DNA of 41,108 nt from an uncultured Fimbriimonadaceae bacterium (lineage in GTDB: Bacteria; Armatimonadota; Fimbriimonadia; Fimbriimonadales; Fimbriimonadaceae), in NCBI GenBank assembly GCA_937961665.1, contig CALGMO010000032.1, positions 1-41,108 of the forward strand, written 5' to 3'. Within the stretch, counting starts at the first letter, position 1; each line of letters opens with the position of its first letter. Under the pieces are notes generated by a model. That model did no database searches and was not told where the DNA came from. It saw only the letters and a list, made by a program, of their open reading frames with translations. Position numbers and translations under genes: made by a program. This document shows, in pieces, positions 2,031 to 7,810 of this stretch.

Positions 2031-2756
2031 GTGAGGCTCCTCGCCGTCATTCCCGCACGCATGGCCTCCACTCGGTTCCCGGGCAAGCCGTTGGTGGATC
2101 TGCTTGGCAAACCCATGGTCCAGTGGGTCTATGAGGCGACCGTCCGGTCGGGTGTAAGCCCGCGTGTGATCGTGGCCACTCCGGATCGGGAGATCGCGGA
2201 CACGGTCCGTTCGTTCGGCGGAGAGGCGGTGCTCACCAGGCCCGATCACCCATCGGGCACCGACCGGCTGGCGGAGGTGGCCAGGAGCCTCGTGTACGAC
2301 GGCTATGTGAACGTCCAAGGCGACGAGCCCCTGATTCGGCCCTCGGCGATCGCGGCGGTCGCGGAGGGCCTGAAGGCCGGAGCGGACGTGTGCAGCGGGT
2401 ACTGCGCGTGCCCGCCGGAAGAGGAGGAGAACCCAGCCGTCGTGAAGGTCGCGGTCTCGCTGGAGGGGCTGGCGCTCTACTTCAGCCGCTACCCGATCCC
2501 CTTCCCGCGGGGCGACCGGCGGGCGCCGCTCTGGAAGCACATCGGTCTGTACGCCTATACCCGAGAGAGCCTGCTGGCGTTTCCCGACTGGGGTCCGAGT
2601 CCGCTGGAGCTCACGGAAGGGCTGGAGCAGCTCAGGTTCCTCGAGCACGGGCGCTCCGTCCGAATGGTGGTGGTCGAGCCCTCCGAGACTGCGATCGACA
2701 CGCCGGAACAGGCCGAGACCGTTCGTCGTTTGTTGGAGGTGACGAACGGCTCATGA
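2031..2756 (+). CDS. kdsB: 3-deoxy-manno-octulosonate (Kdo) cytidylyltransferase
   Basis: Activates Kdo with CTP to CMP-Kdo, the donor for the inner core of lipopolysaccharide; cytoplasmic. The 241-residue product opens with the nucleotide-binding signature LLAVIPARMASTRFPGKPL. It contains HPSGTDRLAE and the metal-binding block YVNVQGDEPLI. Later blocks are YFSRYPIPFPR and WKHIGLYAYTRESL, all in family order, and the length fits (about 245-255). The start is GTG; the next methionine would remove the nucleotide-binding strand. It is coupled to rel by an ATGA overlap at 2753-2756. Its presence argues for a diderm envelope containing Kdo. Confidence 0.96.
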   Translation: MRLLAVIPARMASTRFPGKPLVDLLGKPMVQWVYEATVRSGVSPRVIVATPDREIADTVRSFGGEAVLTRPDHPSGTDRLAEVARSLVYDGYVNVQGDEPLIRPSAIAAVAEGLKAGADVCSGYCACPPEEEENPAVVKVAVSLEGLALYFSRYPIPFPRGDRRAPLWKHIGLYAYTRESLLAFPDWGPSPLELTEGLEQLRFLEHGRSVRMVVVEPSETAIDTPEQAETVRRLLEVTNGS

Positions 2757-5002
2757 GCGCCAGCGACGCGGCTTACTTGGCTGACTCCCATTGGGAAGAA
2801 CCCGACGGGCTCTCCAGCCTGTTGGAGGCGTTTTTGGCCGTCCGGCCCGAGGCGGACGTCTCCAGGATCCGGAGGGCGTACCGGTTCGCCGAGTGGGCGC
2901 ACCAGGGCCAGCTGCGCGAGTCGGGGGAGAAGTACATCGAGCACCCCTTGGCGGTGGCGCGGATTCTCGCCGACCTGCACATGGACGACGACACGATCGT
3001 TGCCGCCCTCCTGCACGACACGGTCGAGGACAGCGCGATCAACGTCAACAAGGTGACGCCCTCCGACGTGGAGCGTGAGTTCGGTCCTACGGTGAGGATG
3101 CTCGTGGAGGGCGTCACGAAGCTCGGCAAGGACTACCTGGCTGGCTTGTCGCCGAGGAAGCGCGAGCAGACGGAGGTGACCCGCTCCGGCGAAAGCCTCC
3201 GAAAGATGCTCCTCGCGATGGCGAAGGACTTCCGGGTGATGGTCATCAAGCTCGCCGACCGGCTGCACAACATGCAGACCCTCGAGGGCTTGAAGAAGGC
3301 TGAGAAGCGCACCCGGATCGCGTCGGAGACGCTCGAGGTCTACGCCCCCTTGGCGGCCCGGCTCGGCATCTGGCAGATCAAGTGGCAACTGGAGGACCTC
3401 GCCTTCAAGCACCTCCACCCGGAGGAGTTCCGCCAGATCAGCGAGCTCGTGGCCAAGAGCCGTGGGCAGAGAGAGAAGGAGGTCAACGAGGCGATCGTGC
3501 TGCTCAAGGAGCGCCTCCTGGCCCGGGGGCTCCGCGACGTGGAGGTGACCGGCCGCCCCAAGCACCTGTACAGCATCTTCAACAAGATGGTGCGGCAGGG
3601 GGTGCGATTCGAGGAGATCTACGACCTGCTGGCGATCCGCGTGATCGTGCAGACGCGAGACGACTGCTACGTCGCGCTGGGAGTCGTGCACGACTTGTGG
3701 ATGCCGGTGCCCGGCCTCTTCTACGACTACATCGCCAAGCCCAAGCCGAACGGGTACCAGAGCCTCCACACGAAGATCGTGGGGCCGCACGGCGATCCGC
3801 TCGAGGTGCAGATCCGCACGCGGGAGATGCACGAGATCGCGGAGTTCGGCGTGGCCGCCCATTGGGCGTACAAGGAGGGCCATTTCTCGCCAGAGGAGAC
3901 CGCGCGCCTTGGCAAGCTCCGCGAGCAGCTCGTCGACTGGTCGATGGAGAACAGAGGCGGCAGCGAGTTCATGCGTTCGCTCTCCACCGACCTGTTCTCC
4001 GAGCAGGTGTTCGTGTTCACGCCCAACGGGGACGTGATCGACCTGCCGAAGGACTCGACGCCCGTGGACGTCGCCTTCCGGGTTCACACGGAAATCGGCC
4101 TGACCACGGTGGGGGCGCGCGTCAACGGCATCCTGGTGCCGCTCAACACGAAGCTGCAGAACGGCGATGTCGTCGAGATCATCACCCGCTCGAACGCCCA
4201 GCCCAGCCTGGACTGGATCGAGTTCGTGCGGTCCGCTCACGCCCGCAGCAAGCTCCGGTCCTACTTCCGCAAGCTCAACCGGACCCAGGACGCCAGCCGC
4301 GGCCGCGAGCTGCTCGAAAAGGAGCTGAAGAGCCTCGGCCTCGAGCCGCGCGACTACCTCGGCGAGGACCGGCTGGAGGAGCTGGCCCGTGAGTACGACG
4401 GCTGCGAGAACGCCACCGACCTGTTGGCCAAGATCGGAGCGGGTCTCCTGTCCGTGCACAGCGCGGTCAACAAGCTCCGGGGAACGGTGATCGAGCCGCC
4501 GCGAGTCGATCAGATCCAGACCACGAAGACCAAGGAAGGGAAGGTCGTCCTCGCGACCGGCGGTGTGGACCATGTGATGCTCCGGCGCGGCCGATGCTGC
4601 GACCCCATTCCGGGCGACGACGTCGTGGGGTACATCAGCCGGGGTCGGGGCATCGTGATCCACCGGGCGAGTTGCCCGAACGTGCAGCATTTCCAGGAGG
4701 CCGAACCGGACCGTCTGATGCCGCTCGACTGGCCGCCGACGGGAGACGTGTTCGGCGTCATGCTTCGGATCGTCGCGGTGAACCGCCCAGGGTTGCTGAT
4801 GGATGTGAGCACGATCTTTGGGGAATCGAAGACGAACGTTTCGGGGGCGCGCGTGCGCACGAACTCCAACAACACCGCAGAGCTGGAGATCACGATCGAC
4901 GTGACCGGGACCGAGCACCTGTCGTCGATGATCAACCGGGTCAGCCAGTGTTCGGACGTGATCAGCGTCCTGAGGGCCATGGGGAGGACGAACGTCAAGT
5001 GA
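2753..5002 (+). CDS. rel: RelA/SpoT-family (p)ppGpp synthetase/hydrolase
   Basis: Makes and degrades the alarmone (p)ppGpp in the stringent response. The 749 residues hold all parts of a long RSH protein: an HD hydrolase domain at about 25-180 (His50, HD at 88-89, ED at 92-93, later LADRLHNMQT), a synthetase domain at about 230-370 ending in YIAKPKPNGYQSLHT, a TGS domain near 420-480 (VFVFTPNGDVIDLP), a zinc-finger-like region with RCCDPIPGD, and a C-terminal ACT domain. The intact HD residues suggest active hydrolysis. The position that reads RFKD in bifunctional enzymes and EFDD in RelA reads LFYD here (residues 322-325). The start overlaps the kdsB stop (ATGA) and the stop overlaps the dtd start (GTGA), so translation is likely coupled. 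Confidence 0.96.
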   Translation: MSASDAAYLADSHWEEPDGLSSLLEAFLAVRPEADVSRIRRAYRFAEWAHQGQLRESGEKYIEHPLAVARILADLHMDDDTIVAALLHDTVEDSAINVNKVTPSDVEREFGPTVRMLVEGVTKLGKDYLAGLSPRKREQTEVTRSGESLRKMLLAMAKDFRVMVIKLADRLHNMQTLEGLKKAEKRTRIASETLEVYAPLAARLGIWQIKWQLEDLAFKHLHPEEFRQISELVAKSRGQREKEVNEAIVLLKERLLARGLRDVEVTGRPKHLYSIFNKMVRQGVRFEEIYDLLAIRVIVQTRDDCYVALGVVHDLWMPVPGLFYDYIAKPKPNGYQSLHTKIVGPHGDPLEVQIRTREMHEIAEFGVAAHWAYKEGHFSPEETARLGKLREQLVDWSMENRGGSEFMRSLSTDLFSEQVFVFTPNGDVIDLPKDSTPVDVAFRVHTEIGLTTVGARVNGILVPLNTKLQNGDVVEIITRSNAQPSLDWIEFVRSAHARSKLRSYFRKLNRTQDASRGRELLEKELKSLGLEPRDYLGEDRLEELAREYDGCENATDLLAKIGAGLLSVHSAVNKLRGTVIEPPRVDQIQTTKTKEGKVVLATGGVDHVMLRRGRCCDPIPGDDVVGYISRGRGIVIHRASCPNVQHFQEAEPDRLMPLDWPPTGDVFGVMLRIVAVNRPGLLMDVSTIFGESKTNVSGARVRTNSNNTAELEITIDVTGTEHLSSMINRVSQCSDVISVLRAMGRTNVK

Positions 5003-5520
5003 GGGCGGTGGTCCAGCGCGTGGCCCGCGCCCAAGTGAACGTGGACGGCAGAACCGTCGGTCGGTGCGGACCCGGGTTGCTGGTGCTGGTAGCCGCCCAC
5101 CGTTGGGACGAGCCGGACCAGGCGCGCAAGATGGCCGACCGGCTGTGGGGTCTGAGGATCTTCAACGACGCGGAAGGAAGGATCAACGTCGCCCTGAAGG
5201 ACCTCCCTGACACCGGAGCGCCGAAGGTGCTCGCGGTCTCGAACTTCACCGTATACGGCGACACCGCGAAGAACCGCAGGCCCAGCTTCACCGAATCGGC
5301 GCCGTTCGATCGGGGCAGGGAGCTTTTCGATCAGATGGTCGAGGAGCTGCGGCGATTGGGGTGTCCGGTGGAGACCGGGGAGTTCGGCGCGCACATGGAG
5401 GTGGAAGCGGTCTGCGACGGCCCTGTGACCGTGATCGTGGACGTACCGCCCCTCGCCCGAACCCCGGAAGGGGACGGAGTCGAAACGGCGACCGGCGAGC
5501 GACGTCAAACCGATGGATGA
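4999..5520 (+). CDS. dtd: D-aminoacyl-tRNA deacylase
   Basis: Hydrolyses D-amino acids wrongly attached to tRNA. The GTG start at 4999 overlaps the rel stop; the encoded start RAVVQRVARAQVNVDG is the canonical DTD opening. The active-site block reads NFTVYGDTAKNRRPSFTESAP, where most homologues have SQFTLYAD followed by RRPSF. The Gly-cisPro motif appears in CDGPVTVIVDV. The product is 173 residues; the family usually ends near 145-150, so about 25 hydrophilic residues extend the C-terminus. It is part of the kdsB-rel-dtd coupled run. Function is well supported; the tail's role is unknown. Confidence 0.95.
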   Translation: MRAVVQRVARAQVNVDGRTVGRCGPGLLVLVAAHRWDEPDQARKMADRLWGLRIFNDAEGRINVALKDLPDTGAPKVLAVSNFTVYGDTAKNRRPSFTESAPFDRGRELFDQMVEELRRLGCPVETGEFGAHMEVEAVCDGPVTVIVDVPPLARTPEGDGVETATGERRQTDG

Positions 5521-5542
5521 AGCCCGACCCGAGGAGGAAAAG

Positions 5543-6157
5543 GTGAACGCCGCGGGAGTCGTGGGAGAGGCCCTCCAGGGCGTCTCGGTGGATTCGGACG
5601 AGGCGTTGGTCCGCTTGGCGCGCCAGGGGGACTTCGGAGCGTTCGAGAGGCTCTTCGAGCGGCACCGCGTGATGGTCTTCCGGATCGCCTACCGGATGAC
5701 CGGAAGGCGCGACGACGCGGAGGACATCACTCAGGACGCCTTCCTCAAGGCCTATCAGAACCTCCACCGCTACCGCGACGAGGCTCGCTTCACCACCTGG
5801 CTGGTGCGGATCGTGACGAACCTCGCCACCGACCGAGCGAGGATGGCGCACCGCAGGCACTCGCTCGAGCAGCAGGAGGCCGGTGGCGCGCTGGACTGGA
5901 TGACGGTGGGAACGACCCGCGAGGATCCCTCCGAGAACATCGAGAGGGAGCAGATGGCGAAGCTGGTGCGGTCCGCGCTGGCCGAGCTGCCCGCGCACCA
6001 CCGCCTGATGATCGTTCTCCGCGATCTTGAGGAAAGGGATTATCAGGAGATTGCCGACGTCCTCGGAACCACGGTGGGTGGAGCCAAGCTGCGCGTTCTC
6101 CGGGCGCGGAGGGCCCTTCGGGACAAAGTGAACCAGATGTTGGAGAAGACGCCATGA
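5543..6157 (+). CDS. ECF-type (group 4) RNA polymerase sigma factor
   Basis: Directs RNA polymerase to stress or envelope-type promoters. Region 2 lies near residues 20-95, with FRIAYRMTGRRDDAEDITQD and FTTWLVRIVTNLATDRAR. Region 4 is at the C-terminus: LPAHHRLMIVLRDLEERDYQEIADVLG followed by the helix-turn-helix VGGAKLRVLRARRALR. I chose the GTG at 5543 because GAGGAGG stands five bases before it; an in-frame ATG at 5513 (ten residues longer) has no ribosome-binding site. The product is 204 residues, similar to RpoE/SigW. It is followed by an ATGA-coupled membrane protein that is probably its anti-sigma factor. Which stimulus it answers to cannot be read from sequence. Confidence 0.93.
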   Translation: MNAAGVVGEALQGVSVDSDEALVRLARQGDFGAFERLFERHRVMVFRIAYRMTGRRDDAEDITQDAFLKAYQNLHRYRDEARFTTWLVRIVTNLATDRARMAHRRHSLEQQEAGGALDWMTVGTTREDPSENIEREQMAKLVRSALAELPAHHRLMIVLRDLEERDYQEIADVLGTTVGGAKLRVLRARRALRDKVNQMLEKTP

Positions 6158-6840
6158 GACTCGGATGGAAACGTCCCGCCGACGCGGACGAGGCGTGGGG
6201 TTCGGACTCGGTGAGCCGGAAGGTCCAGCTCGGTCTGGATGCCCTCCGGAGCGAGTCGCTCGAACCGTCGGTCGGCATCGAGGCGCTCAAAGACCGGATC
6301 CTGCAGGACTCGCTCGCCGCGCCGAGACGCCCCGCGTGGGTCTGGGCGGCGCCGGTGGCCGCATCGCTGGCGCTCGCCTTCTGGCTTGGGGTGGCTGTCC
6401 GCACGGTGCCTCCCGCCGCGACAGTCGGTTCCGAGCCGGCGGCGGGGGTGGCGCGGATCGCGCGTGCGGATTCTCCCCGTCTCGTCGCGAAACCGTCCCA
6501 ACAAGCCCTGCCCCAGCCCGCGGTCGAGAGTCCGTCGGCAGAGCCGGCCCGCACGGTGGACGCTCCGGCAGGCGCGGTCGCGTTGCGGATCGGTAGGGAC
6601 GGCGCCCGTCCCATGGTGGTCGCTCAGTCCTCCCCGATGCTTGCGAGCGACGCGGATCCCAAGCCGGACTCCGCCGCGTTCGGGCAGAGCGAGGCGCTCG
6701 CCGCGCCCCCGGACCCGCCGACAACGACGGATGACGCCGACGAGCAGATCGTGCTGATCCACGCTACGGAGGACACCGAGACGGGAGCGGCCTCGGCCGT
6801 CGAGTTGGAGAGTTCCGCGAATGTTCTGGTGGGCGGATAA
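6154..6840 (+). CDS. Probable membrane-bound anti-sigma factor
   Basis: The ATG overlaps the sigma factor stop (ATGA), the usual arrangement for a sigma/anti-sigma pair. The 228-residue protein has an N-terminal cytoplasmic part of about 60 residues with charged helices, one membrane segment at about 62-83 (WAAPVAASLALAFWLGVAV), and a long outer part rich in Pro, Ala and Ser. The zinc-binding HxxxCxxC motif of ZAS anti-sigma factors is absent and the N-terminal part is short, so assignment rests on position and topology rather than on a recognised domain. If right, it holds the sigma factor at the inner membrane until a signal triggers its release. It overlaps the next gene by 20 bases. Confidence 0.6.
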   Translation: MRLGWKRPADADEAWGSDSVSRKVQLGLDALRSESLEPSVGIEALKDRILQDSLAAPRRPAWVWAAPVAASLALAFWLGVAVRTVPPAATVGSEPAAGVARIARADSPRLVAKPSQQALPQPAVESPSAEPARTVDAPAGAVALRIGRDGARPMVVAQSSPMLASDADPKPDSAAFGQSEALAAPPDPPTTTDDADEQIVLIHATEDTETGAASAVELESSANVLVGG

Positions 6841-7810
6841 GGTTCTGATCCTCCTGGCGTTCGTAGCGCCGATTCCGGACGACCCCTCCATCGAGGCGGC
6901 CGTTCGGGATCTCCAGCCCTCGGTCGCCTACGTCTTGGATCGGGACCGCCGCGTTGGCGTGTTGGCGCTGGTGGACGACCAGGGCACGTTCGTCGGCCAC
7001 GCGCGCCTCGCAGGAGCCTTAGAGATCGACGCCGGTCTGCCGGACGGCAGGAGAATTCGGCTTCGGTTCAAGGCGGACGACTCGGTGACCGGTTTGGCGG
7101 CGTGGGTCTCCCAGCGTGGCGCGGTGCCGGGCATGAGGCCCGTAGCGATCGCCCGCCAGGCGCTCAAACCGGGCTCTCTGTTGGTCGGCTTGGTGCCCGG
7201 CGGAGCCTTTCGGGCGCAGCTCGCCTCGGCGGATCGGCTGGGGGTCGTCGGTTCAAGTCGCCAGGTGGTCGATCTCTCGGAGGTTTGGTTCGAGGCTCCT
7301 TCGGATCCTGTCGCGGGCGCGCTGCTGTTCACGCCGAGTGGTCAGCTGTACGGGATTCTCGGTGCGACGCTCTCCACGGCGCCGCCCGGCGAGGCAGCAA
7401 GGACAAACGATCTGACCAGGGGAGTGGGCGCGCGGCTCGCTCCGCCACCGGCGCGCCTCGGACCATCGAAGCTCACGGTGGGCTTCGCGCTCGGGAGAGA
7501 GCCCCTCCGAAGAGCCGTGGAAGGCCTGTCCTCGCCCCTGGGTCGGGTGGATCGACCGGCGCTCGGCGTGTTGTGTCGGGATGAGCCGTCCGGCGGAGCG
7601 GTGATCGAGCGCGTGGCCGAAGGCTCCGCGGCCGAGCGGGCCGGTCTGTCCCCGGGCGACGTGATCCTGCAGATCGGCGATACACCCGTGAGGAACCAGA
7701 TCGACTTCGCCAAGGCGATGCAGGCTCAGCGGATCGGCGAGCGCGTGAAGCTCAAGGTTCGGCGCGGCTCCCTGGTTTTGGAGATCTGGGCCACGCCCGA
7801 GCGAGGCTAG
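6821..7810 (+). CDS. HtrA/DegP-like PDZ protein lacking the protease triad (pseudoprotease)
   Basis: A 329-residue exported protein: a hydrophobic start (about residues 6-18), a degenerate trypsin-like domain (about 25-205), and a PDZ domain (about 242-325) with SAAERAGLSPGDVILQIGDTPV. The fold of HtrA proteases can be traced, but by hand alignment the catalytic residues are gone. The Ser region NPGNSGGALL is SDPVAGALL (161-169), the Asp region DPxTDLAVL is DDSVTGLAA (86-94), and the TNNHVV region is VGHARL (58-63). It follows the sigma and anti-sigma genes, as MucD follows AlgU-MucA-MucB, so a sensing or chaperone role in envelope stress is inferred. Its TAG stop shares the palindrome CTAG with the recJ stop on the other strand. 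Confidence 0.8.
   Translation: MFWWADKVLILLAFVAPIPDDPSIEAAVRDLQPSVAYVLDRDRRVGVLALVDDQGTFVGHARLAGALEIDAGLPDGRRIRLRFKADDSVTGLAAWVSQRGAVPGMRPVAIARQALKPGSLLVGLVPGGAFRAQLASADRLGVVGSSRQVVDLSEVWFEAPSDPVAGALLFTPSGQLYGILGATLSTAPPGEAARTNDLTRGVGARLAPPPARLGPSKLTVGFALGREPLRRAVEGLSSPLGRVDRPALGVLCRDEPSGGAVIERVAEGSAAERAGLSPGDVILQIGDTPVRNQIDFAKAMQAQRIGERVKLKVRRGSLVLEIWATPERG

Follow-up and report, generated by a model that had tools for sequence, protein, structure and literature searches.

A class-wide sigma/anti-sigma cassette of Armatimonadota encodes a predicted HtrA-derived pseudoprotease

The window analyzed here is a 41,108-nucleotide stretch of DNA from an uncultured Fimbriimonadaceae bacterium (contig CALGMO010000032.1 of assembly GCA_937961665.1). 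Three overlapping open reading frames (ORFs), encoding an ECF sigma factor, an anti-sigma factor and an HtrA-like protein, occupy positions 5543-7810, or 5513-7810 with a longer sigma start. The cassette is flanked by dtd/relA upstream and by recJ/nusG downstream on the other strand. Its features are as follows.

5482..5506, + strand: ECF-type promoter GAAAC-N16-CGTC (-35 at 5482-5486, -10 at 5503-5506), conserved upstream of sigma
5543..6157, + strand: ECF sigma factor (Sigma70_r2, 6e-20; Sigma70_r4_2, 1e-11; TIGR02937, 7e-31)
6154..6840, + strand: membrane anti-sigma factor, by its position, 4-nt overlap with sigma and one transmembrane (TM) helix
6736..6837, + strand: C-terminal hairpin and tail of the anti-sigma factor, residues 195-228 (pLDDT of about 91 over the hairpin)
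6821..6840, + strand: 20-nt overlap of the anti-sigma end and the HtrA-like start (HtrA frame +1)
6821..7810, + strand: predicted exported HtrA-fold pseudoprotease with PDZ domain (AlphaFold, Foldseek and VIA matches; triad absent)
6905..7372, + strand: dead protease-like domain, residues 29-184 (pN/pS of 0.09 and 0.22)
7004..7006, + strand: Arg62, at the catalytic His position (family alignments)
7091..7093, + strand: Gly91, at the catalytic Asp position (family alignments)
7313..7315, + strand: Ala165, at the catalytic Ser position (family alignments)
7556..7780, + strand: PDZ domain, residues 246-320 (PDZ_6, 1.6e-13; PDZ_2, 1.6e-12)

The sigma factor shares 47-93% identity with its orthologs, and its best matches among named genomes lie in Fimbriimonadaceae and related Armatimonadetes bins. 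Its start is most likely the GTG at 5543, directly preceded by an AGGAGG Shine-Dalgarno sequence; an ATG at 5513 is the longer alternative. All three genes were covered by the Pfam search, and the second matched no Pfam or NCBIfam family. A preliminary description of this DNA had presented the genes as one overlapping cassette. The ORFs bear this out, and the same order and overlaps are repeated in dozens of genomes, which places the arrangement far beyond chance. The overlap between the anti-sigma and HtrA-like genes equals exactly 20 nt in most genomes. In correctly delimited loci, the HtrA-like gene reads in frame +1 and the anti-sigma gene stops at TAA or TAG without exception.

In Pfam, the PDZ domain is the only match of the third gene product, in line with the intact PDZ domain that had been proposed. 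The HtrA identity of residues 25-205, invisible to Pfam alone, emerged from profile and structure comparisons. A family profile built from 42 HtrA-like members and searched against PDB sequences matched several HtrAs over its whole length, among them DegP (2e-41 for its top-scoring chain) and DegS (2.5e-30, profile positions 25-331). The AlphaFold model (pLDDT of 88, pTM of 0.80) found DegS with activating peptide as its best Foldseek match (E value of 1.8e-18), while VIA-align ranked M. tuberculosis HtrA, PepD, plant Deg1, MucD, DegS and AlgW highest (Z of 23 to 25). Many HtrAs tie in score in both lists, and no single one is closest. The protein has the double-barrel protease fold followed by a PDZ domain that characterizes the HtrA/DegP family (S1C), and the modeled fold is that of HtrA along the whole chain.

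The catalytic Ser, Asp and His had been reported as lost on the basis of a hand alignment. This reading is correct: the equivalent residues are A165, G91 and R62, and alignments to DegP and to the active HtrAs of the same genome agree, with a leeway of one residue for Ser. H60 in the VGHARL motif, the sole histidine of the protein, precedes the catalytic position by two residues and is conserved in 56% of the 39 members aligned. Among 73 aligned cassette members, none has the catalytic His (0/73), eight, mostly from family f5, retain Asp at the catalytic position, and Ser is retained in families f19 and f13 and a few others. The Gly-Asn-Ser-Gly-Gly loop is gone, and with it the His-Asp-Ser triad with GNSGG that marks an HtrA/DegP protease. 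Judged by these alignments, the gene 3 product is a pseudoprotease derived from the HtrA/DegP family rather than a protease member of it. Because His and Asp are gone where Ser is still kept, the residues suggest a stepwise loss, with His and Asp first and Ser later. A catalytic triad formed at another place in the protein, which would have spoken against the preliminary description, is very unlikely given a single, off-site and poorly kept histidine, and this candidate was rejected. Relatives with an intact triad at the same locus, which would equally have spoken against it, were also looked for. No orthologous cassette of this kind was found, and the catalytic center is lost in all.

The dead domain is under strong constraint. 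In comparisons between congeners, its pN/pS (0.09 and 0.22) does not exceed that of the PDZ region (0.10 and 0.33), and the inner linker has much higher values (0.36 and 0.59). Strong purifying selection, together with the absence of His throughout, argues that the domain is kept for a non-catalytic function.

The distribution of the cassette was explored in 113 genomes of the class. The HtrA-like gene is present in 101 of these, and in all loci read the order is sigma, anti-sigma, HtrA-like. Among the 12 genomes without the HtrA-like gene, four carry the sigma and anti-sigma genes at a contig end and eight also lack the cassette sigma. Two of these eight are 97% complete with a size of 1.5 Mb, and represent a joint loss of cassette sigma and HtrA-like gene; the assemblies of the remaining six are of lower completeness. 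The HtrA-like gene is thus missing only together with the cassette sigma or at a contig end, which indicates an obligate partnership. In genus g29 of the family, the reduced 1.5-Mb genomes G030 and G094 lack the cassette sigma, the HtrA-like gene and the promoter-motif site.

Outside the class, the Armatimonadota families f19 and f13 share the gene order with a partly eroded protein (His and Asp lost, Ser kept). In the sigma tree, all 77 sigmas of dead cassettes fall in one group, apart from the sigmas beside active HtrAs. The split between dead and active is supported at 0.975, and the deepest node within the dead group is weak (0.14). Four sigma operons with active HtrAs (L139, L140, L181 and L204) were considered as orthologous cassettes and rejected, as their sigmas belong to another clade. 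Overall, the whole class has preserved the cassette over a very long period.

The anti-sigma factor consists of a short helical N-terminus, a TM helix (residues 61-81), a disordered Pro/Ala-rich tether of about 115 residues and a C-terminal beta-hairpin. AlphaFold places helices at residues 18-33, 42-54 and 61-81 and strands at 199-206 and 213-218. The two N-terminal helices that precede the TM helix are modeled at moderate pLDDT; a class I anti-sigma domain comprises a three-helix bundle and a fourth helix for sigma binding. The HxxxCxxC zinc motif (ZAS motif, Hx3Cx2C) is absent from the window and its family f1, whereas the orthologs in f2, f3, f13 and f19, and some of those in f5, carry it, with weak zf-HC2 matches in a number of cases. 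Since outgroup orthologs keep the motif, its lack is a derived loss within f1. The missing zinc motif mentioned in the preliminary description therefore stands as an observation on the window, but not as a special feature, since it was lost within the family and many class I domains, such as that of RseA, do without zinc (PMC7406223).

The two ends of the periplasmic part evolve differently. Between congeners, the C-terminal 34 residues are 91% and 82% identical, versus 46% and 27% for the tether, whose pN/pS reaches 0.66 and 0.82. The motif of the hairpin region is found across the family, and in f1 and f5 the anti-sigma C-terminus reads [ND]VxxGG. As this end lies in the gene overlap, wobble positions of the HtrA frame were compared in 37 loci: the G that yields each of the two glycines occurs in 33/37 and 31/37, against 16.7 and 13.2 expected. 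This excess shows that the Gly-Gly ending is selected at the level of the anti-sigma protein. A hairpin that is predicted to be folded and is conserved while its tether drifts, with a selected ending, is likely a docking element. Binding of this tail by the PDZ domain is not suggested outside family f2, because a Gly-Gly end is an atypical PDZ ligand. The f2 anti-sigmas (L068, L069, L070, L104, L106-L109 and L111) end in Ser-Phe (AIICSF, VIGSF, HVFSF), which resembles a classical PDZ ligand.

Upstream of the sigma gene, G[AT]AAC-N16-CGTC (GWAAC-N16-CGTC) with a spacing of exactly 16 was found in 39 of 42 cassettes, and the looser AAC-N15-18-CGTC in 93% of loci, compared to 9% in shuffles. The conserved promoter indicates probable autoregulation by the cassette sigma. 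Genome-wide, the motif shows no excess over a reversed-pattern control, and the regulon is therefore either limited in size or poorly delimited. Under a home-made and rough signal-peptide rule, 5 of 22 non-cassette motif sites stand directly before a signal-peptide-like ORF, versus 0.8% of random positions (p = 8.5e-7). By the same rule, a second set of sites, chosen before looking, gave 2 of 20 before exported proteins, again versus 0.8% (p = 0.012). These sites support a putative envelope regulon. The candidate regulon sites before signal-peptide ORFs are L230, L233, L236, L239, L242, L254 and L259; the exported proteins at L239 and L254 are homologous to each other.

The same genome encodes active HtrAs and an RseP homolog (TIGR00054, 185.8 bits; NCBIfam cut-off, 147.55). 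A second operon, L225 (G000:C93, 599-4315, minus strand), contains an ECF sigma factor, a zinc anti-sigma factor (zf-HC2, 7e-11), an exported-looking ORF and an active two-PDZ HtrA, and resembles AlgU-MucA-x-MucD. Its third gene (2307-3422) looks MucB-like by eye; it was rejected as RseB/MucB since it has no Pfam, NCBIfam or PDB-sequence match. As this active HtrA has its own sigma/zinc-anti-sigma pair, the dead cassette constitutes an additional system. Elsewhere in the genome, a degenerate trypsin-like domain (L074, G000:C71:14906-15244) lies near an active HtrA (L073) and PDZ repeats, and may be a second pseudoprotease.

The cassette resembles several known systems in part. Like RpoE-RseA-RseB with DegS/RseP in E. 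coli and AlgU-MucA-MucB-MucD with AlgW in Pseudomonas, it pairs an ECF sigma factor with an adjoining one-pass membrane anti-sigma factor, assigned by position and TM helix. It also shares with them a periplasmic partner gene in the operon, an HtrA-fold protein in the position of stress sensor and RseP in the genome. It differs in that its HtrA is catalytically dead where those systems have an active partner, in lacking an RseB/MucB gene, and in the long tether and terminal hairpin of its anti-sigma factor. The gene order sigma, anti-sigma, htrA is that of M. tuberculosis SigE-RseA-HtrA (Rv1223; PMC10027907), whose HtrA ranks with the best fold matches (Z of 24.6, a score shared with others). 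In contrast to the cassette protein, this HtrA is reported to be an essential serine protease, and release of its anti-sigma factor takes place either through oxidation or through phosphorylation and ClpC1P2. The active Armatimonadota operons (L225 in the same genome, L139, L140 and HR16 L181) likewise combine an ECF sigma factor, a zinc anti-sigma factor and an HtrA. Unlike the dead cassette, their HtrAs have an intact triad, and the sigmas of L139, L140 and L181 belong to a different clade. Finally, the magnetosome protein MamO is, similar to the cassette protein, HtrA-derived with a degenerate active site and a retained non-catalytic role (PMC4794232). However, it acts in biomineralization with MamE and has no sigma/anti-sigma partner, and the neighbors of the cassette are relA, dtd, recJ and nusG rather than a magnetosome island.

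The obligate pairing, the retention of a dead fold and the conservation of a terminal hairpin beyond a drifting tether are signs that the protein acts as a binding partner. With its cutting residues lost, it very probably senses and signals through binding instead of cleavage, and it may respond to misfolded proteins or peptides, as the preliminary description proposed. By analogy with the RpoE and AlgU systems, we propose, at a probability of roughly one half, that the pseudo-HtrA would serve the anti-sigma factor as a non-catalytic periplasmic partner of the RseB type in an autoregulated envelope-stress switch. Both its binding and its signaling are inferred here. In such a switch, the membrane anti-sigma factor would hold the sigma factor, a contact presumed because it is standard for this gene order. 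In the periplasm, the tethered C-terminal hairpin would dock on the dead HtrA domain. RseB/MucB binds the periplasmic part of its anti-sigma factor and must leave before cutting (PMC8103513), and the bound HtrA-fold protein may similarly shield the anti-sigma factor from a separate site-1 protease, which would make the presumed sign of its regulation negative. Once its PDZ or protease-like domain binds a stress ligand, which is probably a peptide exposed on an exported protein, the HtrA-fold protein would let go or rearrange. An active protease from elsewhere in the genome, putatively one of the HtrAs, and RseP would then cut the anti-sigma factor. The freed sigma factor would transcribe its own operon and some genes for exported proteins. 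Slightly more tentatively, this could be a class-wide pathway, in which a former protease of the HtrA family serves as a binding-only anti-sigma receptor that grips the tethered C-terminal beta-hairpin and reads stress ligands via its PDZ domain or dead cleft.

The opposite sign of regulation is unlikely, yet it has a precedent. As an activating adaptor, the dead HtrA would assemble with or recruit an active HtrA, present the anti-sigma factor and promote its cutting. HtrA family members are trimers, and the genome supplies active ones with which such assemblies might form. MamO, itself a dead HtrA, is needed for MamE-dependent proteolysis (PMC4794232). However, mixing of active and dead HtrAs has left no sign, and sigma/anti-sigma neighbors of its own accompany the active HtrA on contig C93.

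HtrAs of the DegP type combine chaperone and protease roles, and the operon is under a conserved promoter. As a chaperone belonging to the regulon, the gene 3 product could bind misfolded exported proteins in the periplasm without contacting the anti-sigma factor. We consider this quite unlikely, as the obligate co-occurrence and co-loss, the near-fixed 20-nt overlap and the conserved anti-sigma hairpin all fit a partner better. That the protein retains protease activity through a rearranged catalytic center is very improbable: retention of the fold is the one point in its favor, against an off-site histidine that only about half of the members keep, the lack of His at the site in 73/73 and the lost Gly-Asn-Ser-Gly-Gly loop. 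A decaying pseudogene or a chance arrangement, in favor of which nothing was found, is refuted by class-wide conservation and purifying selection and has a negligible probability.

The components of the binding-partner switch are known separately, as sigma/anti-sigma/HtrA operons in M. tuberculosis and AlgU-MucD, and as dead HtrAs in MamO. In the open-licence literature searched, no work joining a sigma/anti-sigma operon with a dead HtrA was found, nor any account of sigma-factor signaling together with HtrA in these bacteria. HtrA proteins are the textbook link from envelope damage to sigma factor release, which they achieve by cutting. Here, the HtrA fold and the same kind of partners have been kept after cutting was lost, apparently stepwise across the phylum. 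The cassette thereby uncouples sensing by the fold from its proteolytic activity, and is a natural experiment on the requirements of a stress sensor.
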